Shown one piece after another: positions 2,092-41,776 of a DNA stretch of 44,821 nt. Within the stretch, counting starts at the first letter, position 1; every line of letters begins with the position of its first letter. The position numbers were made by a program, and so were the translations under genes. The notes beneath the pieces are model-generated. The model had not been told where the DNA came from. It worked only from the letters and a program-made list of their open reading frames with translations, and ran no database searches. The DNA is from Lachnospiraceae bacterium. GTDB taxonomy: Bacteria > Bacillota > Clostridia > Lachnospirales > Lachnospiraceae. The stretch is taken from assembly GCA_910575605.1 (NCBI GenBank), contig CAJTEW010000025.1, positions 1 to 44,821 of the forward strand, in the 5' to 3' direction.

Positions 2092-2138
2092 CTGCCAGAA
2101 AGTCAGCTATCAACATGAGAACGAACAGGAGGTAATGA

Positions 2139-6287: not shown

Positions 6288-6292
6288 GCAGG

Positions 6293-6379: not shown

Positions 6380-6449
6380 ATCAAAGCAGATATTATGTGG
6401 ATTGGGGCGGTTCAGAATAACCGTCCTCTTTCCATGTATGGAGGTAATT

Positions 6450-6755: not shown

Positions 6756-6763
6756 GGTGAAAG

Positions 6764-8634: not shown

Positions 8635-8660
8635 ACTTATTATACGAGGAGGTATGGGAT

Positions 8661-9088: not shown

Positions 9089-9124
9089 ATGTGGGGCATG
9101 GACAACAGGAGGATTGATATTTTT

Positions 9125-9163
9125 ATGGAACAGATTGTTTTGTCGGGCGGTGATAAAGAGTGA
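9125..9163 (+). CDS. Possible 12-residue leader peptide
   Basis: AGGAGG at 9107-9112 is followed by an ATG at 9125 reading 12 codons to a TGA that overlaps the GTG start of the next gene. The next gene has no good ribosome site of its own, so this mini-ORF may couple its translation. No homology is claimed. Confidence 0.3.
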   Translation: MEQIVLSGGDKE

Positions 9164-9618: not shown

Positions 9619-9632
9619 GGAGGTGTGAGCCT

Positions 9633-12600: not shown

Positions 12601-15600
12601 AGGCATCCGTCAACCTCTTGCAGTACCGCATGGAAACGTATGTGGACGGCGTTCTTGCAGAATATACGCAGTACAGCGACCTTGCCGACCTTATCCAGAA
12701 CGCACTTTCCAATCTGTACTACCACGATTTAGTGTCTTTGACGGAGGAACAGCTTGAGCCGTTCTATCGGGAAGAAAACGCAAAAGCGGCTGAAAACCCA
12801 AGCCCAGACATTATCTCCGATGAAACAGAACAGAAGCCCCATTACACGGTAGAGCAGACTTCCGATGCCTTTGCCGACCAGTTTATCATACGGAATAACG
12901 AAGCCCCAGAGGACAGTGCCGACCGATATTACGACGTAGGCGGCATCTACCAGACGTTTGAAAACGAGGAAGAAGCGCAGGAATACGCCGACACTTTAAA
13001 TCATGCGGAGCGTGAGGGACGGCAGAAATTAGAGCCTGCCCAGACTGGAACAGACAGGACGCAGGATAATTCTGACCTTATCGGCAAAGAGCTTATGATT
13101 GACAACCGCCGTTATCTTATCGAGAGCGTCGGGAAAATCAGCGGCGATGTTTCCATGCGTGACGTCACATTTCAGAATAGCGTAGGCTTCCCGATAAACC
13201 GTGTGGAGAAAGTGGGCTATGTCCGCAGGCTCTTGGAGCAGGAAAAAGAACAGAACCAACAGCAAAGACAGGCACAGAACGAAATACCGACCGAAGAAAA
13301 ATCAGAATCCCCCGCAAAGCCGACCACGGAAACCGTGGCGGAATACCCCGCCGTGGAGAATGGGCTTCCTTATGACATTGTGGTGGAGAAGATAAAATTT
13401 GACGAGCCAGAGCAGAAACCCCAGAGCCACAATCTGGCAAACACGCTCCGCTCCAAACTGGAAAAGGCAAAAGACAGTGCGGGACATGCCGCATTGGAAG
13501 AGGATATAAATACCCTTTTCATGGATAAGAACGGCGACAGCCTTGTGGGGATTGCTTCGGATGAGTGGCTGAAACAGCTTGCGGCAATGCCCGATGATGA
13601 GTTCCGCAGATATGCGGACAGTTACCAGAAAGGCACTCTGAACGCCTATAAGCTGCTCCCCCTCTCCGCCGACCGCCGTAACTACCGCATTACCGATGAT
13701 AATTTAGGCGTTGGCGGAGCAAAAGAGAAGTTCCGCAACAACATGTCCGCAATAAGGCTTCTCCATGACCTTCAGATAGAAAACCGCCTTGCCACGCCCG
13801 AAGAACAGGAAACCCTTGCAAAGTATGTCGGGTGGGGCGGTCTGTCGATGGCGTTTGACGGGAACAATGCGGCATGGGCAAATGAGTATAAGGAACTGAA
13901 AGTCGCACTCTCCGATGAGGAATACCATGCCGCTATGGAATCCACGCTGACCGCATTTTATACGCCGCCCGTCGTTATCAAGGCGATGTATGAAGCACTT
14001 GACCGTCTGGGATTTTCACAGGGAAACATCTTGGAGCCGTCCTGCGGCACGGGTAATTTCTTAGGGCTTCTGCCCGACAGCATGGAGAAATCAAAGCTGC
14101 ACGGCATTGAGATTGACCCGTTATCGGGCAGGATTGCAAAGCAGCTTTACCAGAAAGCCAGCATCGCCATTGAGGGATTTGAGGAAACGAAGCTCCCAGA
14201 CAATCATTTTGACGTGGTGCTTGGCAACATCCCGTTCGGGGAGTTCAAAGTCAACGACAGCCGCTATAATGCCCAGAAGTTCCTAATCCACGACTATTTT
14301 ATTGCAAAGGCTCTGGATAAAGTGCGGGCAGGCGGCGTTGTGATGTTCATCACCTCTAAGGGGACGATGGACAAGGCAAGCCCAGAGGTGCGGAAGTATA
14401 TTGCACAGAGAGCCGAGCTTTTAGGGGCGGTAAGGCTTCCCGACAATACGTTTCGGGCAAATGCAGGAACGGAGGTCACGAGCGACATCCTTATCCTGCA
14501 AAAGCGTGACAATATAATTGACATTGAGCCAGAGTGGGTACACCTTGACACAGATGCAAATGGAATCACGATGAACAGCTACTTTGTCCAGCATCCAGAG
14601 ATGGCACTTGGCGAGATGAGGATGGAAAGCACAAGGTTCGGCATGGACAGTGCCTGCAAAGCCTACCCAGACGTGCCGCTTGCGGGGCTTCTCCATGAAG
14701 CCATGCAGCGGATAGACGGCGAAATCACGGAGCAGGATGTTGGGATTGACGAAATATCCGATGAGAATGAGAAAGCCATCCCCGCCGACCCGAACGTGCG
14801 GAACTTCTCGTTTGCCCTTGTGGGCGGCAAAGTCTACTTCCGAGAGAATAACGAGATGACCCCTGCAAACGTGTCCATGACGGCGGAGAGCCGCATCAAG
14901 GGGCTGCTGGAAATCCGTGACTGCGTGAGGAAGCTCATCCAATACCAGACCGACGACTGCCCAGAGGAAATGATACAGACCGAGCAGGAAAACCTAAACC
15001 GATTATACGATGCCTTTACCAAAAAGTACGGCTTGATTAACAGCAGGGGGAACTACCTCGCTTTTGCGGCGGATGAAAGTTATTTCTTACTCTGTTCCCT
15101 TGAAGTGCTTGACGATGAGGGGAAATTCAAACGCAAGGCGGATATGTTCACGAAACGGACGATAAAGCCCCACCGAGAAGTGACCTTTGTGGAAACCGCC
15201 AGTGAAGCCCTCGCCCTCTCTATCGGGGAGAAAGCCCGTGTCGATTTAGAGTATATGGCACGGCTCACCTGCAGGTCAGAGGAAGAAATCATCAAGGAAT
15301 TGCAGGGTGTAATCTATAAAGTGCCGTCATCCGAGTCTGCAAGGTATGTGACCGCAGACGAGTATTTGTCGGGGAATGTGCGGGAGAAACTGAAAATTGC
15401 AGGGATAGCGGCAAAGTCAGACCCAGAGCTTACAGTCAACGTGGCGGCTCTGGAAAAGGTCATCCCAAAGGATTTGCCTGCAAGCGAAATCTCCGTCCGT
15501 CTCGGCACGACATGGATACCGCAGGAGGATATACAGCAGTTCATGATGGAGCTTTTAACGCCCTCAAGCTATGCGGCGGGCAGATTGAAAGTACGCTACA

Positions 15601-18503
15601 CGGCATATAACGGGGACTGGTTCATTGAGAATAAGAGTTCCGACATTGGGAATGTCAAGGCGGACAGCACTTACGGCACGAAGCGGGCAAGCGCATACCG
15701 CATCATGGAGGACACCTTAAATCTCCGTGACACCCGCATCTTTGACTATGTTTACGATGAACACAACAATAAAAAAGCGGTGCTGAACCATAAGGAAACC
15801 ACGGCGGCGCAGGCAAAGCAGGAGGTGATAAAGCAGGCGTTCCAAGACTGGATATGGAAAGACCCAGAGCGCAGGAACAGGCTTGTACGCTACTACAATG
15901 ACACATTCAATTCCATCCGCCCCCGTGAATATGACGGAAGCCATATCACGTTCGGCGGCATCAGCCCAGAAATCCAGCTAAGACCGCATCAAGTAAATGC
16001 GATTGCCCATATCCTCTACGGCGGCAACACGCTCCTTGCCCACAAGGTAGGTGCGGGGAAAACCTTTGAAATGGTAGCCGCCGCACAGGAAAGCAAACGG
16101 CTCGGCTTATGCCAGAAATCCATGTTTGTTGTGCCGAACCACCTTGTCGGGCAGTGGGCGTCGGAATATTTACGGCTCTACCCAAGTGCCAACATCCTTG
16201 TCACGACCAAGCGGGATTTTGAAACGGGAAACCGCAAGAAGTTCTGCGGCAGGATTGCGACGGGGGCGTATGATGCGGTGATTATCGGGCATAGTCAGTT
16301 CGAGAAAATCCCCATCAGCGAGGAACGCCAGAGGGAACAGCTCATGCGCCAGCTTGACGATATTGAGCGTGGCATTGACGACGTGCAGGCGTCCCGCGGG
16401 GAGCAGTTCACGGTCAAGCAGCTCATGAAAACAAGGAAAGCAATCAAGGCGAAGCTCGACAAACTGAACGACACCAAGCGGAAAGACAGCGTGATAAACT
16501 TTGAGGAATTGGGCATAGACAGGCTCTTTATAGATGAGAGCCATTTTTATAAGAACCTCTATTTATTTACCAAGATGCGGAACGTGGGCGGCATAGCCCA
16601 GACCGAAGCCCAGAAAAGCTCCGACCTCTTTATGAAATGCCGCTATCTGGACGAAATCACGGGCAACCGTGGCGTGGTTTTCGCAACGGGGACGCCCGTC
16701 TCAAACTCGATGGTCGAGATGTATTCCGTGCAGAGGTACTTGCAGTATGACACCCTCGCAAGGAACGGGTTGCAGCATTTTGACAGTTGGGCTTCCACGT
16801 TCGGCGAAACGGTCACGGCTCTGGAACTTGCCCCAGAGGGGACGAATTACCGAGCCAAGACGAGGTTTGCGAAGTTTTACAACCTGCCAGAATTGATGCA
16901 GATGTTCCGTGAGGTTGCGGACATCCAGACCGCCGATATGCTAAAGCTCCCCGTGCCAAAGGTCAATTACCACAACATCAAGACCAAGCCGAGCCAAATC
17001 CAGACGGAAATGGTGGCGGGGCTTGCGAAGCGGGCAGAGAAAATCCGTGCAAGGCTCGTCAAGCCCCAATTTGATAATATGCTCAAAGTGACAAACGATG
17101 GGCGGCAGCTTGCCTTAGACCAGAGGTTGATTGACCCGATGCTGCCAGACGACCCAAACAGCAAAGTCAACGCCTGCGTGGACAATATCTACCGCATCTG
17201 GGAAGAACACGCCGACACAAAGGCGGCACAACTCGTCTTTTGTGATTTATCGACACCTGCCAAGAAAAAGATAATAGAGATGCAGGAAGTCAGAGAAAAT
17301 GTCTTTGAGATGCTGCCCGACCAGTTTGAAAATGTTTATGATGACATGAGGAAAAAACTCATACAGCGTGGCATCCCTGCGGAGCAGGTGCGGTTTATCC
17401 ACGAAGCGAATACTGACGCACAGAAAAAAGAGATGTTTGCAAAGGTAAGGAGCGGCGAAGTGCGTGTATTGTTTGGCTCTACCCAGAAGATGGGTGCGGG
17501 TACAAATGTGCAGGACAGACTGATTGCCATCCATAATCTCGACTGCCCGTGGAAACCATCGTGTTTAGAACAACGCCAGGGGAGGATTGAACGTCAGGGA
17601 AATATGTTCCCAGAGGTTGAAGTTTACCGTTATGTAACGGAACAGACATTTGATGCGTACCTCTATCAGCTCGTCGAGGGAAAGCAGAAATTCATCTCCC
17701 AGATAATGACGAGCAAAAGCCCTGTGCGTTCTGCCGAGGACGTGGATGAGGTTGCCCTCTCCTTTGCGGAGGTAAAAATGCTGGCTACGGGCGATGAGCG
17801 TTTCAAGGAAAAAATGGATTTGGACATGCAGGTGGCGAAGCTGAAAGTCTTGAAGCAGAGCTACCTTTCCGAGCATTACGACCTTGAGGACAGGATACTG
17901 AAGCACTACCCGCAGGAGATTAAGGAGTATGGGGAACGCATTGTAGGATATGGGAATGATGCCAAAATTGCCAGCCAGCACATGCCGCAGGGCGAGGACA
18001 AGTTCTGCCCAATGACCTTAAACGGCGTGACCTACAAAGAAAAAGCGGACGCAGGCGAGATGCTGCTTGCCATCTGCAAGGAAAACCCGCTGTCACAGCC
18101 GATACAAATCGGCAACTACCGTGGCTTCCAGATGGAGGTTTTCTATGATACTGTCAACACCTGTTATTGCCTAAACTTATGTGGAATGAGAAAGTACAAG
18201 GTGGAATTAGGCGTGGACGCCCTCGGAAATCTGACCCGAATCGAGAATGAGATTGCCAAGCTTCCTGCCCGACTGGAAGCCGCCAAGACGAGAAAGGACG
18301 AAACCATCGCACAGCTTGAAACCGCGAAAAAGGAAGTGGAGAAGCCGTTTGCCTTTGAAAATGAGCTGAAAGAAAAGACGAAGCGGCTCAACGCACTCAA
18401 CATCGAATTGAATCTAAATGAAAAAGACAAGTCTGTTATTGACGATGAGCCAGAGCAGAACGATGAGCAGCCAGAGAAAAAATGCACGGACAGGGAGCGT
18501 TAA
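9633..18503 (+). CDS. Giant N6-adenine methylase / SNF2-like helicase protein
   Basis: 2956 residues from the ATG at 9633 (AAGGAGGTG upstream). The N-terminus looks LtrC/ArdC-like (WQGFLSSACHNYKCRFDEQLLIYAQRP). A Gln/Asp/Ala-rich linker at about residues 280-450 is followed by several uncharacterised domains. A class I methyltransferase core has LEPSCGTGNF (about 1467) and the N-[IV]-PF catalytic variant NIPFGEF (about 1532). A superfamily 2 helicase has Walker A GAGKT (2140-2144), DESH (2301-2304) and the motif VI sequence QRQGRIERQ (2647-2655). The C-terminus is coiled-coil. Proteins of this kind are standard in Tn1549-like elements and may protect or remodel incoming DNA (inference). Residues 280-397 are encoded by the same DNA as tnpV in another frame. 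Confidence 0.9.
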   Translation: MAAKYQLITELYRRTGMAVAKNPQAWQGFLSSACHNYKCRFDEQLLIYAQRPDATAVAEIGTWNRLFKRWVNKDSKGIAVFDPKGRRNTLKYYFDVSDTHEGYYGSRAVPIWQMDKRYEQPVMERLADRFGGTEGGDLATFLIQTAENAVEDNLPDYLSQLKGCTKDSFLEELDDYNIEVIYKRLAANSVAYMLLSRCGLDAGGYFEREDFAEIINFNTPQTLNAIGIATSDISEMALREISAAVRNVQIEAKRQNRTFARDTASQYDKGRKQPERSEENERNHLHEAGGLPYTRPDITDRARASAWQVRFDAQGLSGKPQKSDVPQPADSGQAERTLTPDRADGVAEVGASDEAARQRAGSDGGAERESPDAVARHDEQYPQPSGGSHLERTDLQLGNSEPESQSDGGRQEKKAAAAQTAEPEGQTEKGSVANEEEVAANLPTIDEQIERIAEAEDEKVSAFAVSQEDIDSVLTEGSGYQNGKYRIYRQFQKREDKKSNIDFLRNEYGTGGGTHTYPDGTDGHEWHDGKGIAIEKQGSYTNPDLLLSWSKVEKRLRELIKDNRYLNAKEKDHYADYLDGISAPQYEIDTQRKLARQRFIEEKRELPPADKRDTLALRLSDFIRDSDGYEKSLLGNVGRGDLANVTEGQMEQFFSDPATVQQLLDFLKLVQDKTGDVYSRSNAWRFSQELTELYPLRYLYHEGDVVYIGADIYEVTAFDENAVSLRNAEFPLFGKEFSREDFEQKLKENPANDHLKTVITESQKTETLAEEKPDSITLSIGFSEHPAFYDRELNDRFTDLSFALGNKLLGILDEKQHRERENEENHVGWYHKTDFEIHAVIGGEEFNYEGRFDIGDGEGDLTAHIRNFYEYSLSPDCPFIPEWKRQGEDYYREKMESLRLGRDVFIPFLERNTELTPEDEKRLGEIMATEEDWFHRRKEPIEEELLEQAKGCIDAYCDAEFGGDAEVDYTDLSNVKIAFRNTEDGLHGIQASVNLLQYRMETYVDGVLAEYTQYSDLADLIQNALSNLYYHDLVSLTEEQLEPFYREENAKAAENPSPDIISDETEQKPHYTVEQTSDAFADQFIIRNNEAPEDSADRYYDVGGIYQTFENEEEAQEYADTLNHAEREGRQKLEPAQTGTDRTQDNSDLIGKELMIDNRRYLIESVGKISGDVSMRDVTFQNSVGFPINRVEKVGYVRRLLEQEKEQNQQQRQAQNEIPTEEKSESPAKPTTETVAEYPAVENGLPYDIVVEKIKFDEPEQKPQSHNLANTLRSKLEKAKDSAGHAALEEDINTLFMDKNGDSLVGIASDEWLKQLAAMPDDEFRRYADSYQKGTLNAYKLLPLSADRRNYRITDDNLGVGGAKEKFRNNMSAIRLLHDLQIENRLATPEEQETLAKYVGWGGLSMAFDGNNAAWANEYKELKVALSDEEYHAAMESTLTAFYTPPVVIKAMYEALDRLGFSQGNILEPSCGTGNFLGLLPDSMEKSKLHGIEIDPLSGRIAKQLYQKASIAIEGFEETKLPDNHFDVVLGNIPFGEFKVNDSRYNAQKFLIHDYFIAKALDKVRAGGVVMFITSKGTMDKASPEVRKYIAQRAELLGAVRLPDNTFRANAGTEVTSDILILQKRDNIIDIEPEWVHLDTDANGITMNSYFVQHPEMALGEMRMESTRFGMDSACKAYPDVPLAGLLHEAMQRIDGEITEQDVGIDEISDENEKAIPADPNVRNFSFALVGGKVYFRENNEMTPANVSMTAESRIKGLLEIRDCVRKLIQYQTDDCPEEMIQTEQENLNRLYDAFTKKYGLINSRGNYLAFAADESYFLLCSLEVLDDEGKFKRKADMFTKRTIKPHREVTFVETASEALALSIGEKARVDLEYMARLTCRSEEEIIKELQGVIYKVPSSESARYVTADEYLSGNVREKLKIAGIAAKSDPELTVNVAALEKVIPKDLPASEISVRLGTTWIPQEDIQQFMMELLTPSSYAAGRLKVRYTAYNGDWFIENKSSDIGNVKADSTYGTKRASAYRIMEDTLNLRDTRIFDYVYDEHNNKKAVLNHKETTAAQAKQEVIKQAFQDWIWKDPERRNRLVRYYNDTFNSIRPREYDGSHITFGGISPEIQLRPHQVNAIAHILYGGNTLLAHKVGAGKTFEMVAAAQESKRLGLCQKSMFVVPNHLVGQWASEYLRLYPSANILVTTKRDFETGNRKKFCGRIATGAYDAVIIGHSQFEKIPISEERQREQLMRQLDDIERGIDDVQASRGEQFTVKQLMKTRKAIKAKLDKLNDTKRKDSVINFEELGIDRLFIDESHFYKNLYLFTKMRNVGGIAQTEAQKSSDLFMKCRYLDEITGNRGVVFATGTPVSNSMVEMYSVQRYLQYDTLARNGLQHFDSWASTFGETVTALELAPEGTNYRAKTRFAKFYNLPELMQMFREVADIQTADMLKLPVPKVNYHNIKTKPSQIQTEMVAGLAKRAEKIRARLVKPQFDNMLKVTNDGRQLALDQRLIDPMLPDDPNSKVNACVDNIYRIWEEHADTKAAQLVFCDLSTPAKKKIIEMQEVRENVFEMLPDQFENVYDDMRKKLIQRGIPAEQVRFIHEANTDAQKKEMFAKVRSGEVRVLFGSTQKMGAGTNVQDRLIAIHNLDCPWKPSCLEQRQGRIERQGNMFPEVEVYRYVTEQTFDAYLYQLVEGKQKFISQIMTSKSPVRSAEDVDEVALSFAEVKMLATGDERFKEKMDLDMQVAKLKVLKQSYLSEHYDLEDRILKHYPQEIKEYGERIVGYGNDAKIASQHMPQGEDKFCPMTLNGVTYKEKADAGEMLLAICKENPLSQPIQIGNYRGFQMEVFYDTVNTCYCLNLCGMRKYKVELGVDALGNLTRIENEIAKLPARLEAAKTRKDETIAQLETAKKEVEKPFAFENELKEKTKRLNALNIELNLNEKDKSVIDDEPEQNDEQPEKKCTDRER
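10471..10824 (+). CDS. tnpV: TnpV-like protein nested in another frame of the helicase gene
   Basis: A complete 117-residue gene lies wholly inside the giant helicase gene, in the +1 frame. GAAAGGAG (10455-10462) sits eight bases before its ATG. The product matches the TnpV transposon-protein pattern as I know it: an opening EITYTRQADYLIPDLTLP, then RYALMHRDYL, LNLLTAGRL, VTEELKEK and a closing MNNIRSQAEEAILSELIYN. TnpV function is unknown. The overlapping helicase residues form a low-complexity linker, as expected if that frame is the overprinted one. It could be expressed or simply a captured relic; the intact frame and ribosome site favour expression. Confidence 0.7.
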   Translation: MSEITYTRQADYLIPDLTLPTEPELPLGRYALMHRDYLENHKRVTYLNLLTAGRLNEHLHQTEQTALQRLELLTKQLAKEQEVTEELKEKAPMQWLGMMNNIRSQAEEAILSELIYN

Positions 18504-18518
18504 ATCCAGTTTGCACAT

Positions 18519-18547
18519 TTGTACTGCTGAATTTGGGGTATTATAAT
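18519..18547 (+). promoter_or_regulatory. Sigma-70-type promoter
   Basis: TTGTAC (18519-18524), 17-base spacer, TATAAT (18542-18547). It lies after the helicase stop and would drive the gene at 18583. Confidence 0.55.
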
Positions 18548-18582
18548 AAAGGACGATTAGAAAAAATCGGAGGTGAGGAAGA

Positions 18583-18912
18583 ATGTCTGATGCGTTCAGA
18601 TTTGAAACTTTTGTAGATGTTCATGACAATGTTTTTAATGAATATCTCGGCTCTGCCATCACAAAGTTGTCCAGAGAAAACGAGGAATACCGTGCCATAA
18701 GAGCCGAGATTGAGAGCCTTTATGAAAAATATCCGAAAGTTTTAGGCGTGTTTGACACGGAAACGGCGGTGGAACTGACCGAGGAAGAATGTGCCGCACT
18801 GATTAAAGTGATGGAGTTTAGGAACAAACTTACAGACATGGAGATGCAGTCGGTCTATTTCCGTGGATGTTATGACAGCGTGGGGTATCTGAAAAAGGCA
18901 GGGATTTTATAA
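18583..18912 (+). CDS. Conserved small ICE protein, 109 aa
   Basis: A single-gene unit with its own promoter (18519-18547), an AGGTGAGG ribosome site and a terminator (18930-18962). The protein is acidic and helical (RFETFVDVHDNVFNEYLGSAITKLSRENEEY), ending YFRGCYDSVGYLKKAGIL. I recall similar proteins following the giant helicase in Tn1549-like elements, annotated only as a domain of unknown function. Function unknown. Confidence 0.75.
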   Translation: MSDAFRFETFVDVHDNVFNEYLGSAITKLSRENEEYRAIRAEIESLYEKYPKVLGVFDTETAVELTEEECAALIKVMEFRNKLTDMEMQSVYFRGCYDSVGYLKKAGIL

Positions 18913-18929
18913 CGGACTGACCGAAAAAA

Positions 18930-18962
18930 GGCGGTGTCGGTGTGAAGCTGATGCCGTCTTTT
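18930..18962 (+). terminator. Intrinsic terminator
   Basis: GGCGGTGTCGG (18930-18940) pairs over 11 positions with CTGATGCCGTC (18948-18958), including four G-T wobbles, with a 7-nt loop. A-tract before, TTTT after. It ends the 18583 gene. Confidence 0.65.
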
Positions 18963-18977
18963 ACATAGCCGAGAGGT
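18961..18977 (+). repeat. Left 17-bp direct repeat of the protease cassette
   Basis: TTACATAGCCGAGAGGT, identical to 19869-19885. This copy carries only the left arm of the leader hairpin; the full hairpin follows the right copy. Confidence 0.85.
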
Positions 18978-18999
18978 GGAAAATTTTGTATTTATGTAG

Positions 19000-19005
19000 T
19001 ATAAT
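19000..19005 (+). promoter_or_regulatory. Likely -10 box for the protease gene
   Basis: TATAAT, 33 bases before the protease start. No convincing -35 is seen at 16-18 bases, so the call rests on the -10 and location only. Confidence 0.35.
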
Positions 19006-19038
19006 GAAAACAAATTTTTTAAGGAGACTAAGAAAGAT

Positions 19039-19851
19039 ATGAATAAGGTAATTACAGTTAATCCATACTCTATGGCATCATATTATGTAGATATGTTTTT
19101 TGATGATATAAAATTATCTAATGCTACTTGTTTTTTCACGAAAAGGAAAGATAAGATATATTTAGTAACGAATTGGCATGTGGTGAGTGGACGAAATGCT
19201 GACACTAAGAAATGTTTGAATGAAATGGGGAGTGTTCCTAATAAATTGCGTGTGTATGTGCCAAGAGAGGGGGAAAATTCTACTATAAGTTATGATGATG
19301 ATTTCTATATGGATGTTGATTTAATAGACAGAGATGGCAATGAATTGTGGTATGGAATGCAAAAAAATGGCAGAATGATTGATGTTGCTGTAATCCCTTT
19401 GCATGAAATGAAAGGTAGTTATATAACCGTAGAAGATGCAGAAGAACCATTTAATGAGCAAATTGATTTGGAAGTAGCATCCGAAATTTATATAATTGGA
19501 TTTCCTTTTGGAAAACAAACTGGATATATTCCAATCTGGAAAAGGGCGAGTGTTGCAAGCGAACCAGAATTAGATGTTGATGATTTACCATATTTTTTTG
19601 CAGATACTGCAACTAAATCAGGAATGTCTGGTTCGCCAGTAGTATTATACAAAGATAGACCTGCTACTATAATTAGCGAAAAAGAAAAAAGGGTCAGTAA
19701 GCACAAGACAAAACTTGTTGGAATATATTCTGGGAGGATTGGTGCAGATAGTGAAAATAAAGGTGATGCTCAATTAGGGCGAGTATGGAAATCACATATT
19801 ATTCAAGAGTTAATAGATAGTTATGAATCAGAAGTTTTAAAATTAGAATAA
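19039..19851 (+). CDS. Trypsin-like serine protease (cargo)
   Basis: 270 residues from the ATG at 19039 with AAGGAG at 19021-19026. A chymotrypsin-fold triad is visible: His47 in TNWHVVSG, Asp115 in MIDVAVIP and Ser197 in GMSGSP. The oxyanion-loop sequence SGMSGSPVVLY and a late LVGIYSGR strand complete the fold. There is no signal peptide or membrane span, so it is probably cytoplasmic. Stand-alone cytosolic trypsin-like proteases occur as effectors or cargo in phage-defence islands, which makes defence a reasonable guess, but nothing in the sequence proves a target. Base composition and flanking repeats mark it as acquired. Confidence 0.82.
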   Translation: MNKVITVNPYSMASYYVDMFFDDIKLSNATCFFTKRKDKIYLVTNWHVVSGRNADTKKCLNEMGSVPNKLRVYVPREGENSTISYDDDFYMDVDLIDRDGNELWYGMQKNGRMIDVAVIPLHEMKGSYITVEDAEEPFNEQIDLEVASEIYIIGFPFGKQTGYIPIWKRASVASEPELDVDDLPYFFADTATKSGMSGSPVVLYKDRPATIISEKEKRVSKHKTKLVGIYSGRIGADSENKGDAQLGRVWKSHIIQELIDSYESEVLKLE

Positions 19852-19868
19852 ATGTTTTGCTGAGAAAC

Positions 19869-19885
19869 TTACATAGCCGAGAGGT
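19869..19885 (+). repeat. Right 17-bp direct repeat of the protease cassette
   Basis: TTACATAGCCGAGAGGT, identical to 18961-18977, here forming the left arm of an intact leader hairpin. Confidence 0.85.
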
Positions 19886-19915
19886 TTTCACAACGAAAAT
19901 CCCTCGGCTAAATCT
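19869..19915 (+). promoter_or_regulatory. TTACATAG-type leader hairpin before the primase gene
   Basis: TTACA, then TAGCCGAG (19874-19881) pairing with CTCGGCTA (19903-19910). The stem continues inward through GG/CC and TTTTC/GAAAA with single-base bulges to loop ACAAC, about 15 pairs in all. AATCT follows, and the ribosome site GGAGG begins 11 nt after the stem. It shares constant flanks with the elements at 151 and 41726 while the stem bases differ in a compensatory way. It lacks a clean T-run, so a terminator is less likely than a translational or protein-binding element. Confidence 0.65.
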
Positions 19916-19940
19916 ATTTTTGGAGGTGATTTTTATTTGA

Positions 19941-20930
19941 ATGAGAGGTAACAGACCTTATGTGCAGATTGACCCCGACGTGCTTGAGCAGGCAAGGCAG
20001 ATAGATTTGTTGTCTTATCTTAGAGCCTACGAGCCGAGCAACCTTGTCAAAGTCAAAGGCACGACGAACGTCTATTGTACCGCCGAGCATGACAGCTTGA
20101 AGATTTCCAACGGCAAATGGTACTGGTGGTCGAGGGGCTTCGGCGGCTATTCTGCCCTCGACTATCTGATGAAAGTCAAAGAATACGGCTTCGTGGAAGC
20201 CGTGGAAACCCTCACGGGGCAGACAATGGCGGACTGGAAGCCGCCGCCCCCTGCCGTGAAGAAAGACGAGCCAAAGGTGCTTCTCCTGCCGCCGAAAAAT
20301 AAGGACTGCGGCAGAGTGATGGAGTATCTTTTCGGGCGTGGCATTGACTATCAGATTATCCAAGAGTGCATTGCCGAGGGGATTATTTTCGAGAGTGCCG
20401 ACTACCACAACGCCGTTTTTATTGGGAAAGATGAAAGCGGGACGCCAAAATACGCCGCCTGCCGTGGCACAATGGGGAACTTTAAGCGGGACGCATCAGG
20501 CAGCGACAAGCGGTATTCGTTTCGACTTCTGGCAAAAGAGCCGACCGACGCCGTGCATTTATTTGAGGCTGCCATTGATTTATTATCCTACGCCACCTAT
20601 TTAAAATGCGGGGGAAAGGATTATAAGACGGAGAATCTTCTCTCCCTGTCGGGCGTGTACCAGCCGAAGAAAGAGCTGAAAGAAAGCAAAATCCCCGTTG
20701 CCCTCACGACTTTTTTAAAAGCAAACCCACAAATCAAGACCATATTTCTGCATCTGGATAAGGACAGGGCAGGTCGGTTATGTACCGCCGCTTTGAAAGA
20801 ATTGTTGCAGAAAGACTACCGAATCGTTGATGAACCGCCGCCAATCGGAAAGGACTTCAACGATTTTTTAATGTCCTATCTGGGGATTGCAAGGCAGAAA
20901 CCGAGCCGTGAGAGGAGGGATGCCCGCTGA
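19941..20930 (+). CDS. DUF3991/Toprim primase-like protein
   Basis: 329 residues; ATG at 19941 with GGAGGTGAT upstream. The N-terminus (LSYLRAYEPSNLVKVKGTTNVYCTAEHDSLKIS) resembles the primase zinc/DUF3991 region. The C-terminal Toprim motif reads IFLHLDKDRAG with the DxD acidic pair, followed by GKDFNDFL. Such proteins are expected to prime synthesis of the transferred strand or of the excised circle. It is preceded by the structured leader at 19869, which may control it. The C-terminus is basic. Confidence 0.85.
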   Translation: MRGNRPYVQIDPDVLEQARQIDLLSYLRAYEPSNLVKVKGTTNVYCTAEHDSLKISNGKWYWWSRGFGGYSALDYLMKVKEYGFVEAVETLTGQTMADWKPPPPAVKKDEPKVLLLPPKNKDCGRVMEYLFGRGIDYQIIQECIAEGIIFESADYHNAVFIGKDESGTPKYAACRGTMGNFKRDASGSDKRYSFRLLAKEPTDAVHLFEAAIDLLSYATYLKCGGKDYKTENLLSLSGVYQPKKELKESKIPVALTTFLKANPQIKTIFLHLDKDRAGRLCTAALKELLQKDYRIVDEPPPIGKDFNDFLMSYLGIARQKPSRERRDAR

Positions 20931-21003
20931 CTGAATGAAGATTTTCAGCAAAAAATGACCGTAACCACAACAAAATTTCAGACTGAAAGGGAGGAAAGAC
21001 CGA

Positions 21004-21294
21004 TTGAAAAATTATGAAGTGACCCTCGTCGCCCACTATGCAAAGACCGTTTCCATCCATGCCGACAGCCCCGAACAGGCGGCGGAGAAGTTAAAGATTA
21101 TCCTGTTTGACACCGACCTTGTGAGGTTTTCCGACGGGGATTTTGTCTGCGGCGAAGCCGAGATTAACGACCCTATGGAGGACGCAGGGGAAGAAAGCGA
21201 ATCCGAGGGAGAGGATTTTGAGGACGATTGTTGTTCGGAATGTCCGTGCTTCAGAATGATGTGTAAAGGATGCTGTTGCGGGGGCGGGGATTAA
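21004..21294 (+). CDS. Small protein with acidic linker and Cys-rich tail, 96 aa
   Basis: The TTG start at 21004 has GGGAGG nine bases upstream. Residues 1-55 form a compact beta-alpha unit (YEVTLVAHYAKTVSIHADSPEQAAEKL) reminiscent of DpnD/PcfM-type small proteins (uncertain). An acidic stretch (DAGEESESEGEDFEDD) follows, then a tail with eight cysteines (CCSECPCFRMMCKGCCCGGGD) that could bind metal. Function unknown. It lies just before the candidate oriT. Confidence 0.7.
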   Translation: MKNYEVTLVAHYAKTVSIHADSPEQAAEKLKIILFDTDLVRFSDGDFVCGEAEINDPMEDAGEESESEGEDFEDDCCSECPCFRMMCKGCCCGGGD

Positions 21295-21300
21295 AGACAC

Positions 21301-21415
21301 GTCTTACCAAGCACTGAATTTGGTTATCCATCTGCCGATGGAAACAAAATTCGCTTGTTAGGGGAAAGCTCCCCTAATACCCCGTGGAAAAGACCGCCGC
21401 CAGAGTGCGGCAGGA
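21301..21415 (+). other. oriT: Candidate origin of transfer (oriT)
   Basis: A noncoding gap immediately upstream of mobC and the relaxase. It contains a perfect hairpin TTAGGGGA-AAGC-TCCCCTAA (21358-21377), a CTTGTTA-type sequence running into its left arm, and a second hairpin GCCGC/GCGGC (21396-21411). Position and structure fit a MOBP-type oriT with nic near the first stem. The exact nick cannot be read from sequence alone. Confidence 0.5.
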
Positions 21416-21433
21416 AGAAAGGAGTTTTTAAGG

Positions 21434-21598
21434 ATGAGAGATTTATTGTTCTTCGCCCTCGGCACAACGCTCGGAGGGATGTGCGGCGTGGCGTGTATGT
21501 GCGTGCTGCAGATTAACAGGCTCTCCGATGGAAAGGGGGATTTGGATGCGGAAACGAAACGTGCAGATACTGTTCCGACTGACCGAGGAAGAAGCTGA
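21434..21598 (+). CDS. Small DUF3789-like membrane peptide, 54 aa
   Basis: ATG at 21434 with AAAGGAG at 21418-21424. The first 28 residues (MRDLLFFALGTTLGG, then GVACMCVLQINR) form one membrane span and match the short DUF3789 pattern as I recall it. The usual family proteins end soon after; here the frame runs on into mobC, overlapping it by 53 nt. Function unknown. Confidence 0.6.
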   Translation: MRDLLFFALGTTLGGMCGVACMCVLQINRLSDGKGDLDAETKRADTVPTDRGRS

Positions 21599-21878
21599 AT
21601 ACCTCTGCTCCCTTGCGGATAGGGCGGGACACTCCAGACAAGCCCTGCTCCAGTCGATGGTTATGGGCTACCGCCTATGTGAGAAGCCAGACCCAGAATT
21701 TTATAAAATCATGCGGGAGCTGTCCGCCATCGGCAACCGCATCAACCAGCTTGCGGCAAAGGCGAACGCCTTGAACTTTGTGGACACGCCGATGCTCTAT
21801 GACGAAGCCAAGCGGTGGCGGGACTTCCGTCTGGACGTGGGCAGATGCTACCTTGTGCCGAGGAAGACGTCTGGCTGA
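21546..21878 (+). CDS. mobC: MobC-like relaxosome protein
   Basis: 110 residues from the ATG at 21546, chosen over the ATG at 21528 because AAAGGGGG sits six bases before it. A ribbon-helix-helix-like start (RNVQILFRLTEEEAEYLCSLADRAG) is followed by the MobC signature GNRINQLAAKANAL. It should bind oriT and help the relaxase open the nick site. The stop overlaps the relaxase start (TGATG), as is usual for this pair. Confidence 0.85.
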   Translation: MRKRNVQILFRLTEEEAEYLCSLADRAGHSRQALLQSMVMGYRLCEKPDPEFYKIMRELSAIGNRINQLAAKANALNFVDTPMLYDEAKRWRDFRLDVGRCYLVPRKTSG

Positions 21879-23290
21879 TGGCGGTCTGCGAGATATGGGA
21901 CGTGAAAGGCAGGCTCGACCACCCCATCGACTACGCCGAGAACCCAGAAAAAACCGCCAACCCAAAATACACGGATGCGGACTTGCAGGCGATGGGCGAC
22001 GTGATGAAGTACGCCACTAACGGCGACAAGACCGAGCGGCAGTTTTTCGTCACGGGCGTAAACTGCGACCCTGCCACTGCAAGGGACGAGATGATGATGG
22101 CAAAAGCCCAATGGAACGACCAGAGCGAGATTGTCTGCTACCACGGCTTTCAGAGTTTTAAAGCGGGCGAGGTCACGCCAGAGCAGGCACACGAGGTCGG
22201 CGTGAAGCTGGCGGAGAAGATGTGGGGCGGAAGGTTTCAAGTGATTGTGGCGACACATCTGAATACGGAGTGCCTGCATAACCACTTTGTCGTCAATTCC
22301 ATTTCTTATATTGACGGAAAGCATTACCACGACAACAAGAAGAACCTGCGTCTGCTCCGCCAGCGTTCGGACGAATTGTGCCGTGAGTATTCCTTATCGG
22401 TCATCGAACACCCAAGCGGCAGGAAGAAGCCCTATGTCCTCTGCCAAGCCGAGAAGAACGGCTTGCCTACGAGGGATGCCGTGGCACGGCAGGCGGTGGA
22501 CGAAGCAATCTCAAAATCGTTCACGCTGAAAGACTTCGACCGCCAGTTGTCGGAAATGGGATACCGCATCAATTTTGACCCCAACCGAAAATACTGGACG
22601 ATAATCGGGAAAGGATGGCAAAAACCGAAGCGGCTCTATAAGCTCGGCGAGGACTACACCAACGAGAGGATAACGGAACGCATCAAGGAAAATTCCTATG
22701 CGGTCAAATTCCAGAGCTTTTCCAAAGAGCAGCCACAGGTCAGAGTGATAAGGGTAAAAGGCACGTTAAAGGACGCCAAGAAAATCGGCGGCTTGCGTGG
22801 GCTGTATCTCCACTACTGCTACAAGCTCGGCATCCTGCCAAAGAAGAAACCGCAGAATTACGCAAGGCTTCACTATCTTCTGAAAGACGACTTGATGAAG
22901 ATGGAAGCCATCACCAACGAAACAAGGCTGCTTTGCCGCAACCATATCGACACGGCGGGGCAGCTTTTGTCTTATAAAGGTTCTCTGGAATCCGAGATGC
23001 AGGAGCTGACCGAACAGCGAAAGGGGCTTTACTCCCAATCCCGAAAATCTGTCGGGGAAGAAAAAGAAGCGGTCAAGGCTCGGCTGTCGGAAATCACGGG
23101 GCGCATGAAAACACTGCGGAGGGAGGTCAGATTATGCGACGGTGTGCTTGCCCGAAGCGATACCCTCAAAGAAAAATTAACTATCATACGGGCAGATGAA
23201 AAAGAACAGAAAGGAAAGGAGCTGATGAAGCATGAACACAGGCGGCGAAGCGGCGGAGCAAATCGTAAGGATGAGCTTGGAGGGATTTGA
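21878..23290 (+). CDS. MOBP-type relaxase
   Basis: 470 residues from the ATG at 21878 (TGATG overlap with mobC). The nuclease signature HLNTECLHNHFVVN puts metal-binding His at 127, 134 and 136. Tyrosines in the first 45 residues are candidates for the DNA-linked nucleophile. A long helical, charged C-terminus follows (EMQELTEQRKGLYSQSRKS). It nicks oriT and is carried with the single strand to the recipient. It ends 59 nt inside pcfB. Confidence 0.88.
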   Translation: MAVCEIWDVKGRLDHPIDYAENPEKTANPKYTDADLQAMGDVMKYATNGDKTERQFFVTGVNCDPATARDEMMMAKAQWNDQSEIVCYHGFQSFKAGEVTPEQAHEVGVKLAEKMWGGRFQVIVATHLNTECLHNHFVVNSISYIDGKHYHDNKKNLRLLRQRSDELCREYSLSVIEHPSGRKKPYVLCQAEKNGLPTRDAVARQAVDEAISKSFTLKDFDRQLSEMGYRINFDPNRKYWTIIGKGWQKPKRLYKLGEDYTNERITERIKENSYAVKFQSFSKEQPQVRVIRVKGTLKDAKKIGGLRGLYLHYCYKLGILPKKKPQNYARLHYLLKDDLMKMEAITNETRLLCRNHIDTAGQLLSYKGSLESEMQELTEQRKGLYSQSRKSVGEEKEAVKARLSEITGRMKTLRREVRLCDGVLARSDTLKEKLTIIRADEKEQKGKELMKHEHRRRSGGANRKDELGGI

Positions 23291-24098
23291 GGTCGCAGCC
23301 AGAATCACGGGGGCGGGTGCAAAGAACATCGCCATCCTGCTCTACTCCATTTTAAAAGAGGAACAGAAAACCAAAGGAAAGGCAAGGCTCACAAATATGC
23401 TCCGCTCTGGAAAGGAGCTGAAAGTCTTTACCGTAAAGAGCGGCGACTTGAAAAAGTTCACGCAGGAAGCGAAAAAATACGGCGTACTCTACTGCGTCCT
23501 CGCAGACCGTAAGAACAAAGACCCCGATGCGGAGGTGGATGTGATTGCGAGAGCCGAGGACGCATCGAAAATCAGCCGCATCGTGGAGCGGTTCAGCCTT
23601 GCTTCCGTAGATACCGCTTCCATCGTGACCGAAGCGGAGAAATCGAAAGGGGAAAAAGGAAGGGCGAAAGATGCCAAGACCGCAGATGCAAAAGACGCAG
23701 GGGCAAAGGACGGTCAGCCAGAGCCAGACGTCGGCGTGGAGGAAAAGGCGGAGAAAGACAGGCTCATGGACGCCCTTATGGGAAAGCCCGTGCAGAAGGA
23801 GGAAAACGCCCCAAACCCCTCGGTGGCAAAGACAGAAAAATCCCCTCTGTCCGAGCCTACCTCAAAGCAGCAAAGGAAGCCCGCAGAGGGGGCTACTATG
23901 GCTAAGACGGAGAAGCCGTCAGTCAGGGAGGAACTGCGGAAAATCAAGGAGAGCCGCAAGGAGCAGGAAGCGGACGCTTCCCCGAACCTTGACAAAGAGA
24001 AATCCCCCGACAGGGCGAAGAAGCCGCCCGCAGGAAAGACGGAGCATAAGCAGCCCCAGAAGCGGAAACGGAAACCAAAATCGAAAGGAGCAAGATAA
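23232..24098 (+). CDS. pcfB: PcfB family (DUF3801) transfer protein
   Basis: 288 residues; ATG at 23232 with AAGGAG at 23215-23220. The N-terminal 150 residues carry the DUF3801 pattern (GFEVAARITGAGAKNIAILLYSILKEEQKTKGK, KSGDLKKFTQEAKKYGVLYCVL). The rest is a low-complexity Lys/Glu/Pro-rich tail ending RKRKPKSKGAR. In pCF10, PcfB works with the coupling protein, so a relaxosome-to-VirD4 adaptor role is likely. It begins inside the relaxase gene. Confidence 0.85.
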   Translation: MNTGGEAAEQIVRMSLEGFEVAARITGAGAKNIAILLYSILKEEQKTKGKARLTNMLRSGKELKVFTVKSGDLKKFTQEAKKYGVLYCVLADRKNKDPDAEVDVIARAEDASKISRIVERFSLASVDTASIVTEAEKSKGEKGRAKDAKTADAKDAGAKDGQPEPDVGVEEKAEKDRLMDALMGKPVQKEENAPNPSVAKTEKSPLSEPTSKQQRKPAEGATMAKTEKPSVREELRKIKESRKEQEADASPNLDKEKSPDRAKKPPAGKTEHKQPQKRKRKPKSKGAR

Positions 24099-24100
24099 GC

Positions 24101-24964
24101 ATGAGCATTTATGACGTATTCAGCGGCGGCGGCAGACCTTTTAACAAAGAGGAATGGGCGGCGCAGAAACAGGAGCAGCGCAAAGCAGCCTATGAGCTGA
24201 TAGACACGACCTGCGAGAAAATGATGGCGGACGGAGGTGCGTTTCAGCAGTACCTTGACGTGCAGGGGCATTTTGACCGCTACTCCGTCAATAACGCCAT
24301 CTTAGTTTCGGCACAGATGCCCGAAGCGACGCAGCTTAAAGACTACGGCAGTTGGAAACAGAGCCGTGCCTATGTGGACAAGGACGCACAGAAAGTGACC
24401 ATCCTTGAGCCGGGGAAAGAGTACGAGCGGGAGGACGGCTCAAAGGCGGTCGGCTACAACGCTAAAGTGGTCTATGACATTTCCCAGACCTCGGCAAAGG
24501 ACAGGCAGCAGCCGCAGGAGCAGAAAACCATGCGGGAGCTTGTGTCGGCGATGATTGACGCAAGCCCCGTTTCCTTTGTGCCAGTGGACGACCTTGAGCT
24601 GCCTGCATTTTACGACAGCGCACAGCAGACCATCTTCATCAAGACGGGATTAAATGAGGAACAGCTCTTTGTCAGCATGGCAAAGGAAGTGTCGGCGGCG
24701 GTCTTTGACTTCAAGCACAAGGAGAGCCGTGACGTTTCAGAGTTCAAGTCGTTCTGCGTCGCCTATATGGTAAGCTCCCGCTACGGCGTGGACACGAGAG
24801 GTTTTAACTTTGACAATCTCCCGAAAGAGTTTGCGGGCATGGAAACGCAGGAATTTAAAGGGCAGCTTGGCTCGATGCGTGACGTACTCGGCGAAATCCA
24901 GTCGGACATGTATAAGAGCCTTGAAAAGAACAAGCCGCCCAAATCCAAAGAGCAGGAACGCTAA
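24101..24964 (+). CDS. ArdC-like DNA-binding protein with degenerate protease site
   Basis: 287 residues, two bases after pcfB. Residues 30-110 resemble the ArdC/LtrC ssDNA-binding N-domain (GHFDRYSVNNAILVSAQMP, DYGSWKQSRAYV). The region where ArdC proteins carry an HExxH zinc-protease helix reads SMAKEVSAAVF, so both His are replaced and catalysis is probably lost. It may coat or escort transferred DNA, or counter restriction (inference). Confidence 0.68.
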   Translation: MSIYDVFSGGGRPFNKEEWAAQKQEQRKAAYELIDTTCEKMMADGGAFQQYLDVQGHFDRYSVNNAILVSAQMPEATQLKDYGSWKQSRAYVDKDAQKVTILEPGKEYEREDGSKAVGYNAKVVYDISQTSAKDRQQPQEQKTMRELVSAMIDASPVSFVPVDDLELPAFYDSAQQTIFIKTGLNEEQLFVSMAKEVSAAVFDFKHKESRDVSEFKSFCVAYMVSSRYGVDTRGFNFDNLPKEFAGMETQEFKGQLGSMRDVLGEIQSDMYKSLEKNKPPKSKEQER

Positions 24965-24979
24965 TCGGAGGTGCAGACC

Positions 24980-25177
24980 ATGAAGGAAGAACGATACCAC
25001 TTGGCATTGGACAAATACGACAAGAACATCGTCCTCAATGCCCTCAACACCCTGCGGACGCAGCAGATACAGGAGGAACGCCCCACCGAGCCTGTTGACG
25101 AGCTGATAAGCAGGGTGGCATTCGCCCCGACCAAGAAAGTAAAGGTCGCCCCGTGCAAGTGCCATGAAGAACGGTGA
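24980..25177 (+). CDS. Small conserved ICE protein, 65 aa
   Basis: ATG at 24980 with GGAGG at 24967-24971. A soluble helical protein (YHLALDKYDKNIVLNALNTLRTQQIQ) ending in a CKCHEER tail. It overlaps the virD4 start by 14 nt, a regular position in these transfer modules. Function unknown. Confidence 0.7.
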   Translation: MKEERYHLALDKYDKNIVLNALNTLRTQQIQEERPTEPVDELISRVAFAPTKKVKVAPCKCHEER

Positions 25178-26957: not shown

Positions 26958-26971
26958 GGAGGATTTACCCT

Positions 26972-27328
26972 ATGAAACTTTTTAAGAAGAACGAGAAGAA
27001 AGCAACCCAGAAACTGCCGATGACAGGCAAGGTAAAAAGGGGCTTCCGCCATTACTGCGTGGCGGTGCTTGCCGTTATGATGGTATTTGGCACATCCATG
27101 ACCGCCTTTGCCGCCAATGACCCGATTGCTGTTGTCAACAACCTTTCCAATTTCATCTTCGGTCTGATACGGGCGGTCGGGATGATTATGCTTGGCTTCG
27201 GCATCGTGCAGGTCGGCTTGTCGTTGAAATCCCACGACCCGTCCCAGAGGGCGAACGGCTTCCTCACACTGGCGGGCGGCGTTGTGATTACCTTTGCGAA
27301 AGAGATTTTAACCCTCATCACGGGCTAA
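26972..27328 (+). CDS. Maff2-family pilin-like membrane protein
   Basis: 118 residues; ATG at 26972 after AAGGAGG. A basic N-terminus and a signal-like segment ending MTAFAAND are followed by two hydrophobic helices (LSNFIFGLIRAVGMIMLGFGIVQVGL and LAGGVVITFAKEI). This is the Maff2 layout found in Clostridial ICEs, and it resembles VirB2-like pilins in size and topology. The cleaved form would sit in the membrane as a channel subunit (inference). Confidence 0.82.
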   Translation: MKLFKKNEKKATQKLPMTGKVKRGFRHYCVAVLAVMMVFGTSMTAFAANDPIAVVNNLSNFIFGLIRAVGMIMLGFGIVQVGLSLKSHDPSQRANGFLTLAGGVVITFAKEILTLITG

Positions 27329-27433
27329 TCCAAAACAGACTGAAATAACAGACTGACACAAGACAAGATAACGGGGCAGATCCGCTCTGCGGGGCTTGCC
27401 CTGCTATCAAATTTTAAGAACGGAGGTGGTCGA

Positions 27434-28270: not shown

Positions 28271-28296
28271 TTATCCAACAGGAAAGGAAAATTGAA

Positions 28297-28533
28297 ATGA
28301 AAAAAGAAACGAAGTATTGCCAGAATTATAATATCCATCTGTTAAATGGAGAAGTCATTGAGGCTTCCGAAGCCTATGACCTGCCTGCTGAAAAAGGGCT
28401 GGTCGGAAAATTTGGAAAAGCGGACGATAACGAGATATTTGAAATCGGGGATGCCATTTCTGGGTTTGCATATATCCCGAAACGCAGCATCCTCTTTATT
28501 TCGACGGGAGACGTCCGAGAGGGGCGGTGCTGA
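28297..28533 (+). CDS. Hypothetical protein, 78 aa
   Basis: ATG at 28297 after AGGAAAGG. A small soluble beta-rich protein (NYNIHLLNGEVIEASEAYDLPAEKG, ending PKRSILFISTGDVREG). No family recognised. It lies between virB6-like and prgI, one base before the latter start, so it belongs to the transfer operon. Confidence 0.65.
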   Translation: MKKETKYCQNYNIHLLNGEVIEASEAYDLPAEKGLVGKFGKADDNEIFEIGDAISGFAYIPKRSILFISTGDVREGRC

Positions 28534-28534
28534 T

Positions 28535-30433: not shown

Positions 30434-30447
30434 AAGGAGGGATTTTT

Positions 30448-36229: not shown

Positions 36230-36245
36230 TAAAATATATAGGCTC

Positions 36246-41755: not shown

Positions 41756-41776
41756 CAGATGGAGGTTATAAAGAAT

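Follow-up and report, generated by a model that had tools for sequence, protein, structure and literature searches.

Three genes of one mobile element, parA, a primase-like gene and mazF, are each preceded by a hairpin with the same flanking letters just before the ribosome site, and the question that this locus raises is which factor, if any, these hairpins have in common. The window, i.e., the whole stretch of 44,821 nucleotides that was analysed, is one contig from a genome of 3.8 Mb and covers the greater part of an integrative conjugative element (ICE). The ICE carries parA, parB, a gene for a SpaA-type surface protein, a gene whose very large product matches helicases and methyltransferases weakly, a primase gene (DUF3991/Toprim), NikA-like and relaxase genes, and genes for a VirD4-type coupling protein, PrgI and VirB4/TraG-like proteins, a sortase and a lysozyme/CHAP protein. 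In the right part of the window there follow a van-type-like cluster, a sigma-70 region-4-like protein, mazF/pemK and a large serine recombinase. The features on which the argument rests are these:

151..183, + strand: leader hairpin of parA, with UACAU at 152-156, stem at 156-178 and GGAGG at 192-196
206..1033, + strand: parA (Pfam AAA_31, 7.8e-60, read from 209)
206..30852, + strand: ICE core, from parA to the DUF6075 gene, with 23 core genes that lack sense UACAU
18961..18977, + strand: half copy TTACATAGCCGAGAGGT of the primase hairpin, at the left edge of a cargo slot and left of the cargo gene 19039-19851
19869..19915, + strand: leader hairpin of the DUF3991/Toprim primase gene, with UACAU at 19870-19874, stem at 19874-19910 and GGAGG at 19922-19926
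19941..20930, + strand: primase-like gene (DUF3991, Toprim_2)
41446..41547, + strand: Rfam pemK RNA RF02913 (45.5 bits, gathering cut-off 34.8), a known motif that is separate from the hairpin
41726..41756, + strand: leader hairpin of mazF/pemK, with UACAU at 41727-41731, stem at 41731-41751 and GGAGG at 41761-41765
41759..42160, + strand: gene for a mazF/pemK-type mRNA interferase (first ATG at 41759; a second ATG, at 41777, follows the Shine-Dalgarno sequence)

The cargo slot extends from 18961 to 19868, between an ORF at 18583-18912 and the primase hairpin. Here it holds the gene of a trypsin-like protease that PADLOC assigns a match to its PDC-S45 model, in loci L036 and L043 it holds other genes, and its left edge retains GCCGTCTTTTACATAG in the window, L036 and L047. 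The VirB4/TraG-like ATPase gene (29198-30433) encodes 411 amino acids, compared with 778 in L036, L042 and L048, and looks truncated.

The three stems are fully paired and different in sequence: TAGCCAC/GTGGCTA with 7 bp before parA, TAGCCGAG/CTCGGCTA with 8 bp and an inner stem before the primase gene, and TAGGCAGG/CCTGCCTA with 8 bp before mazF. Eight hairpins on the sense strand of the window have a mismatch-free stem of 6 bp or more that opens with TAG and closes with CTA. TTACA precedes and AATC follows exactly three of them, those of parA, primase and mazF. All three sites of the form TTACA-TAG...CTA-AATC in the preliminary description were thus recovered at their positions, and they do precede a GGAGG, at measured distances of 13, 11 and 9 nt (parA, primase, mazF) rather than the 9-12 nt that had been given. 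As bare motifs they fold with z values of -3.86 (parA), -7.70 (primase) and -4.54 (mazF), and 0 of 200 shuffles are as stable. When 72-91 nt of context is included the folds are weaker, i.e., z = -1.51 for parA (14 of 200 shuffles as stable), which is unremarkable, z = -2.88 for primase (2 of 200) and z = -3.26 for mazF (0 of 200). A search of Rfam 15 with E up to 10 gave no match to the hairpins at 151, 19869 and 41726, in agreement with the earlier remark that no described motif of this form is known. An intrinsic terminator has a stem followed by a run of U; the three window hairpins run into AATC instead, and some of their relatives do have a U run. A promoter reading of TTACATAG, with TACATA as a -10-like word, was rejected: by eye there is no -35 element conserved at a fixed distance, and the sequence 5' of the primase hairpin is unrelated among relatives.

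The leader hairpin family is real and its pairing is under selection, and this follows from the preservation of pairing across relatives and across mazF loci. The same genome contains a fourth exact copy 5' of parA (G000:C10) and a further mazF leader of hairpin type (G000:C29). The exact pattern with free loop was searched in 299 genomes of the family and gave 67 matches in 47 of them. A manual count put 22 of these matches down as paired leaders in ICEs, belonging to parA, primase or mazF. Of the other 45, two have a stem of at least 6 bp (G112:C42 and G102:C1:3071506) with no Shine-Dalgarno sequence or known gene start 3' of it, and these two were taken as chance. Distant ICEs were found via their primase, in 50 of 391 genomes of the class and, at a stricter limit, in 38 of 397 genomes of the family. 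Among these distant elements, hairpins occur in parA leaders of the G102, G005, G539, G175, G155, G688 and G296 types and in the primase leaders of G641, G545, G589 and G332, and also in G382. In the leaders of all three genes the stem foot carries TACAT time and again, also when the primase of the ICE is only about 47-55% identical.

That the stems differ and yet stay paired had been read as covariation, and compensatory changes in the relatives bear this out. In G382, TAG/CTA has become TGG/CCA while TTACA and AATC have stayed. Among 41 leaders, pair 4 is C-G, G-C, T-G or A-T, and pair 6 is A-T, G-C, C-G or G-T. Over 20 unique arm pairs 97.1% of the cells are paired, to be compared with a mean of 80.6% and a maximum of 87.9% when the 3' letters are dealt anew, in a count that uses 24 of the 41 leaders and L308, omits irregular leaders, ignores kinship and takes 3' arms that had been picked for best pairing. 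A covariance model (R1) with nine rows, one a duplicate and one the G112 copy that was later judged chance, finds the parA copies and the window's primase copy strongly and two other primase copies weakly (E = 0.075 and 0.084); no mazF leaders were recovered in the R1 search, because MAFFT misaligned the mazF arms. As a further observation, tandem hairpins, both starting TTACATAGCC, lie 5' of parA at L035 3550-3647 and at L045 16155-16071 (minus strand), with a terminator (CCAGTCGGCTTTTTT) first and the leader hairpin second.

The most constant part of the family is the TACAT at the 5' foot of the stem, while AATC and the first T vary. The flanks that had been described as constant are so in the three window copies; among wider relatives TTACA gives way to CTACAT or GTACAT, and AATC, which is kept near the window's lineage, is elsewhere replaced by TGAATTT, TTAAATT or TTTCTAT. 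In the 41 leaders and in the parA and primase leaders of the wider set, the constancy of TACAT is partly by construction, as these were collected via a TACAT search. Three views are unfiltered for TACAT, i.e., the primase relatives that include G382, a set of 20 mazF leaders and a set of 63 mazF loci. The 63 loci were fetched by protein, with TACAT disregarded, and in 58 of them a TACAT occurs at most 150 nt upstream of the mazF match; 53 of the 58 have a stem of at least five pairs at the TACAT foot, and the five loci without upstream TACAT are two truncated loci and three remote relatives. In the separate set of mazF leaders, 15 of 20 carry UACAU.

UACAU is the word cut by the MazF enzymes of B. 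subtilis and S. aureus, as described in parts of PMC4041440 and PMC8634880. The window's own MazF matches Pfam PF02452 (PemK_toxin, 1.2e-36) as a whole protein and over the whole profile (1-109 of 109), the NCBIfam MazF equivalogs match it far below their cut-offs (37.2 of 120 bits), and its closest solved relatives are of the B. subtilis and S. aureus type (E about 1e-38). When alignments are mapped by eye, the residues named for UACAU recognition and catalysis in the relevant parts of PMC4041440 and PMC8634880 are kept, except that Phe68 is Leu. By homology, the window's MazF would be specific for UACAU. Near-identical mazF genes occur in gut Lachnospiraceae and relatives.

A mazEF type II toxin-antitoxin system has a cognate antitoxin gene adjacent to the toxin gene, and on the sense strand of the window no such gene was found beside mazF. 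When all sense ORFs of at least 30 amino acids between the sigma-like gene and the recombinase, mazF excepted, were scanned in the window, none of the eight small ORFs (40519-42305) had an antitoxin-like Pfam match; the ORF that follows mazF is SHOCT-like. The pemK RNA RF02913 shares the upstream region of the same mazF gene and is a different RNA, which lies about 180 nt 5' of the mazF hairpin and about 200 nt 5' of the gene and does not include the leader hairpin; RF02913 is common in genomes with primase homologues (above cut-off in 16 of 19). Another mazF subfamily is extended at the C-terminus, and in it the start codon of mazF is overlapped or directly adjoined by UACAU (G446, G005, G138, G539 and G589:C78), which also suggests self-control; the mazF genes of G102, G271 and G038 have no UACAU at the start and two each within the gene.

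Consider now the occurrence of the same word in coding sequence. The idea that UACAU matters arose from the motif together with the mazF gene, and one raw count preceded the first codon-controlled test; the raw count of TACAT in the window is 22 sense and 34 antisense. Expected counts were obtained by shuffling synonymous codons within each gene, with 300 shuffles. In the 36 genes of the window TACAT occurs 13 times when 28.0 are expected (1 of 300 shuffles as low), and its reverse complement ATGTA is normal (30 versus 27.8). In the 23 core genes there is no TACAT, with 13.1 expected and 6 as the lowest value of the 300 shuffles, and ATGTA occurs 13 times with 10.8 expected; the genes to the right of the core have 13 TACAT with 14.1 expected, where the split between core and later genes and the right-hand limit of the core were set post hoc from the TACAT positions. 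Within 1-30852, sense TACAT is found only at 152, 18962 and 19870, i.e., in two hairpins and the half copy. Unlike the ICE core, the van-type cluster has about as many TACAT as expected (8 versus 9.2 over six genes), and five stretches elsewhere in the same genome are normal (e.g., 11 versus 11.4). The cluster, at 34402-40308, is like those for glycopeptide resistance and comprises a response regulator, a kinase, a D-Ala ligase-like protein, VanY, an acyltransferase and an alanine racemase.

Taken by itself, the window has 39 pentamers that do not occur in its core, most of them palindromes of restriction-like type, and in an ordering by z TACAT comes 40th of 990, which speaks against a role for MazF. 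An independent test is provided by other ICEs. Homologues of the core in G176, G152, G025 and the first stretch of G289 have zero TACAT. Among ICEs whose primase is about 50% identical, G539 (0 versus 20.8), G446 (0 versus 18.7) and G604 (0 versus 16.8) are purged, whereas G655 (18 versus 18.7) and G408 (18 versus 20.2) are normal. In a pool of eight purged ICEs TACAT occurs 0 times with 120.5 expected and ATGTA 150 times with 135.2 expected; TACAT is the only pentamer of 1024 that is absent at an expectation of at least 20, and its strand asymmetry is the strongest among the pentamers compared. Purged and unpurged pools were chosen by TACAT itself, so that the value of the unpurged pool is no test; the test lies in the association with mazF and in a registered prediction, both given below. 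Over 13 core spans there are 33 sense TACAT and 306 ATGTA, and a stem of at least 6 bp is found at 23 of the 33 and at 55 of the 306; the 10 sense sites that lack such a stem count against MazF. In six ICEs from two close lineages, the sole sense UACAU in a core span of 28-33 kb is that of the parA leader hairpin.

GATC is normal in G289 (129 versus 130.1) and in G702 (77 versus 71.6), each of which has 1 TACAT. Avoidance of GATC varies between ICEs independently of TACAT, and from this follows that the purge is separate from restriction-site avoidance. Palindromic restriction-like words are also missing from the window core (209-30852), e.g., CCGGA (0 versus 39.2), GGCCG (0 versus 41.4), GATCG (0 versus 35.5) and ACGCG (0 versus 30.7). 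The anti-Shine-Dalgarno-like word CCTCC is depleted on one strand only in the window core (0 versus 19.4), and it is depleted in several purged ICEs (G025, 0 versus 13.4; G176, 0 versus 15.3; G289, 0 versus 13.1) but not in all (G446, 11 versus 10.6).

The relation between the purge and the carriage of mazF was assessed with an ICE defined as purged when it has at most 1 TACAT, as partial when observed over expected is below 0.5, and as unpurged when it is at least 0.5. The purged class includes G102, G702 and G289 with 1 TACAT each, and G641, which rests on five genes (0 versus 2.8); G118:C10 is classed as unpurged at 3 versus 5.7. A mazF gene is linked when it lies downstream on the same contig and strand, and the search for mazF covered 19 and 35 genomes with an E limit of 1e-8; the class without mazF contains ICEs with at least 37 kb of contig to inspect. 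With a linked mazF, 19 of 21 ICEs are purged and two are partial, and without it 3 of 16 are purged and 13 are unpurged. Left out of these counts were G332, G382, G047 and the G000 elements C10 and C2b (fewer than three core genes), G000 C2a (three core genes, 3 versus 3.8), G688 and G214 (short contigs), G345 (mazF at a distance of 75 kb; 0 versus 14.3 in 40 kb and 3 versus 17.2 over 100 kb), and three ICEs whose contig ends 9-22 kb 3' of the primase gene, G351 (10 versus 10.6), G606 (6 versus 8.1) and G390 (16 versus 29.1).

From mazF linkage alone, 12 ICEs were predicted to be purged and 8 to be unpurged, and the prediction was registered before the counts were computed. Ten of the 12 have 0-1 TACAT and the other two are partial (G175, 5 versus 10.2; G155, 6 versus 15.5), and seven of the 8 are unpurged. 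The exception, G770 (0 versus 5.6), is a stretch without coupling-protein and DUF3801 matches, and its primase is almost identical to that of mazF-bearing relatives. In five genomes (G442, G138, G169, G152 and G077) the ICE that bears mazF is purged and a second ICE without mazF is unpurged. The primase tree shows the purge clustered, with five state changes, at least three of them forced by well-supported branches. With so few state changes, few independent events lie behind the association with mazF, and since most of the ICEs predicted to be unpurged belong to a more distant primase lineage, phylogeny is a confounder. A plasmid with similar transfer genes, pMG2200, has an annotated PemK/MazF gene of undefined word and is not purged (10 versus 15.4).

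In one group of ICEs the avoided word is longer. In G175, G155, G296 and G688, which form one clade with linked mazF in two members, and in G214, UACAUA occurs 0 times with 7.2 expected, the other TACATN words occur 24 times with 31.8 expected, and the leader sites 5' of parA and primase read TACATA. In this grouping, which was made post hoc, the avoided word and the leader word seem to change together. For the B. subtilis MazF, a change of specificity from UACAU to UACAUA upon replacement of arginines by canavanine is described in a part of PMC8634880.

A factor that is shared by the three leaders and acts on RNA, as had been suggested before, is probable. The sigma-like protein that had been put forward for this role has found no support. 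Within the constant flank lies UACAU, which MazF enzymes close to that of the third gene cut, and the core genes are emptied of UACAU; the most likely common factor of the three leaders is therefore the MazF that the element itself encodes, which probably cuts the UACAU-based leader hairpins while the coding mRNA of the core is immune. This is carried by the hairpins and their covariation, the site before the ribosome site, the strand-specific purge and the link to mazF, from which we infer cleavage in the cell and its effect on translation. The sigma-like gene itself (40766-41194) is richer in sense TACAT than expected (1 versus 0.3 in the window, 2 versus 0.4 in L046, 4 versus 0.9 in L048), and its message could be a preferred MazF target.

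The proposed leader has UACAU at the 5' foot of the stem, then the stem, an A/U-rich spacer, the Shine-Dalgarno sequence and the ORF, which in the window is free of UACAU. Active MazF would cut U^ACAU at the foot of the hairpin and thereby detach the message from upstream RNA, i.e., from cargo transcripts and host read-through. The product would be a trimmed mRNA headed by a hairpin, with its ribosome site kept and translatable. Because the core ORFs lack UACAU and the ribosome site is 3' of the cut, trimmed core mRNA would still be translated, so that core messages would survive when messages of the host and of unpurged cargo are cut. With UACAU in its own leader, mazF would be subject to adjustment by its product, as suits a gene that has no antitoxin gene next to it. 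A tentative extension of this scheme is that the antitoxin-less MazF may serve the conjugative element as a self-sparing shut-off nuclease: host and cargo messages would be cut and ribosomes handed to the element, whose UACAU-free core of about 30 kb would be cut only at leader hairpins that leave it translatable, and the enzyme would co-evolve both with the word shed from the core, UACAU or UACAUA, and with that of the leaders.

Several observations count against this role of MazF. Three purged ICEs (G604, G589:C23 and G770) have no mazF in reach, and G296 keeps TACATAG hairpins without linked mazF and without a pentamer purge. In 10 of 20 loci there are 1-2 TACAT within the mazF ORF, so that the message of mazF is in some cases unprotected. 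Among mazF leaders, those of G175, G155 and G077 carry UACAU with no clear hairpin, and others lack UACAU (G102, G271, G038, G262:C91 and G688:C47, also L135 and L146). The preliminary description had looked to further copies for preserved pairing, and many relatives keep it, but one leader (loci L345 and L346) has kept its flanks with a decayed stem. UACAU hairpins also exist as intrinsic terminators, in which CTTTTT replaces CTAAAT, and these the processing model leaves unexplained. MazF cuts single-stranded RNA. In the predicted fold UACAU has its final U base-paired, and in some parA leaders its C-A-U, and the hairpin might therefore gate or block the cutting.

If the purge were instead driven by MazF enzymes encoded elsewhere in the hosts, elements of broad host range would have shed UACAU to survive host stress, and the leaders would answer the host MazF. 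Most hosts do have MazF relatives outside the ICE, at least one MazF match being found in 18 of 19 and in 35 of 35 genomes, and the three purged ICEs that lack a mazF in reach would find their explanation here. The same hosts, however, harbour ICEs without mazF that are unpurged, as in the five genomes with both kinds, and in the window's own genome neither the van-type cluster nor the host genes are purged, which makes this explanation unlikely. Alternatively, the hairpin with UACAU at its foot could be an operator for another RNA-binding factor, which would coordinate parA, primase and mazF without cutting. The pairing of the last U agrees with this, as does the conservation near the window of a 3' flank, AAATC, which cutting alone does not need; a mere operator leaves unexplained why the same word is lost from one strand of about 28 kb of coding sequence, and it too is judged improbable.

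As a third alternative, the hairpins could be attenuators, relics of intrinsic terminators, or 5' hairpins that stabilise mRNA and insulate the core genes from upstream cargo. A terminator form (GGCTTTTTC) stands at the same place 5' of primase in G025, G545, G702 and G289, a UACAU-terminator lies 5' of the parA leader hairpin in G176, G289, G175, G155, G688 and G296, and the cargo carried just 5' of the primase hairpin differs between the window, G176 and G152. Neither UACAU at the foot of the stem nor its purge elsewhere is predicted in this case, and this reading is improbable. Finally, the hairpins could act as DNA, in recombination or insertion of cargo or as single-strand initiation sites during transfer; the half copy at 18961, on the left border of the cargo slot, and the break of upstream homology at the hairpin are of the kind expected. 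The fixed place just 5' of the ribosome site, the single orientation, the variable loops and the strand-specific purge all point to RNA, and a DNA role is very improbable.

Processing by the element's own MazF has partial counterparts in known systems. The mRNAs that are processed by MazF in E. coli are leaderless. In the stress-induced translation machinery of that organism, MazF processing selects messages (PMC5111409); there the word is ACA, whereas here a hairpin would stand in front of a retained ribosome site and a single mobile element would make up the regulon. The UACAU cutters EndoA of B. subtilis and MazF of S. aureus (PMC4041440 and PMC8634880) are the closest solved relatives by sequence, and their recognition residues are kept here as judged by eye; here, in contrast, mazF is on an ICE with no adjacent antitoxin-like ORF in the window, and the target word is purged from core coding sequence and kept in leader hairpins. 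RNA phages that face the E. coli MazF are likewise mobile genomes that shed the MazF word, ACA, according to parts of PMC12151602, but theirs is the MazF of the host, whereas here the enzyme is borne by the element, the avoidance in the core is complete and leader sites remain. In Myxococcus xanthus a solitary MazF, unlinked to an antitoxin, is wired into a programme with MrpC; it is chromosomal, and the parts of PMC4803016 that deal with it describe no leader hairpins or purge.

MazF, the avoidance of its sites by phages and MazF without antitoxin are thus known already, and among the open-licence PMC papers that were searched no description was found of the purge or of MazF, leader hairpin and purge in combination. 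The analysis yields a real family of leader RNAs without an Rfam entry and, going past the preliminary description, core genes from which the MazF word has vanished completely, on one strand only, in most of the mazF-bearing ICEs tested. If the proposed scheme is true, a MazF without adjacent antitoxin would have a concrete job, i.e., to regulate and protect the mRNAs of its own mobile element. The complete loss of a pentamer from one strand is a sharp genomic signature from which, given DNA sequence alone, an RNase's cleavage word may be predicted, and which could locate other pairs of nuclease and element. The scheme would also provide a testable mechanism by which the ICEs of gut Firmicutes, with their resistance genes and other cargo, favour their own expression.
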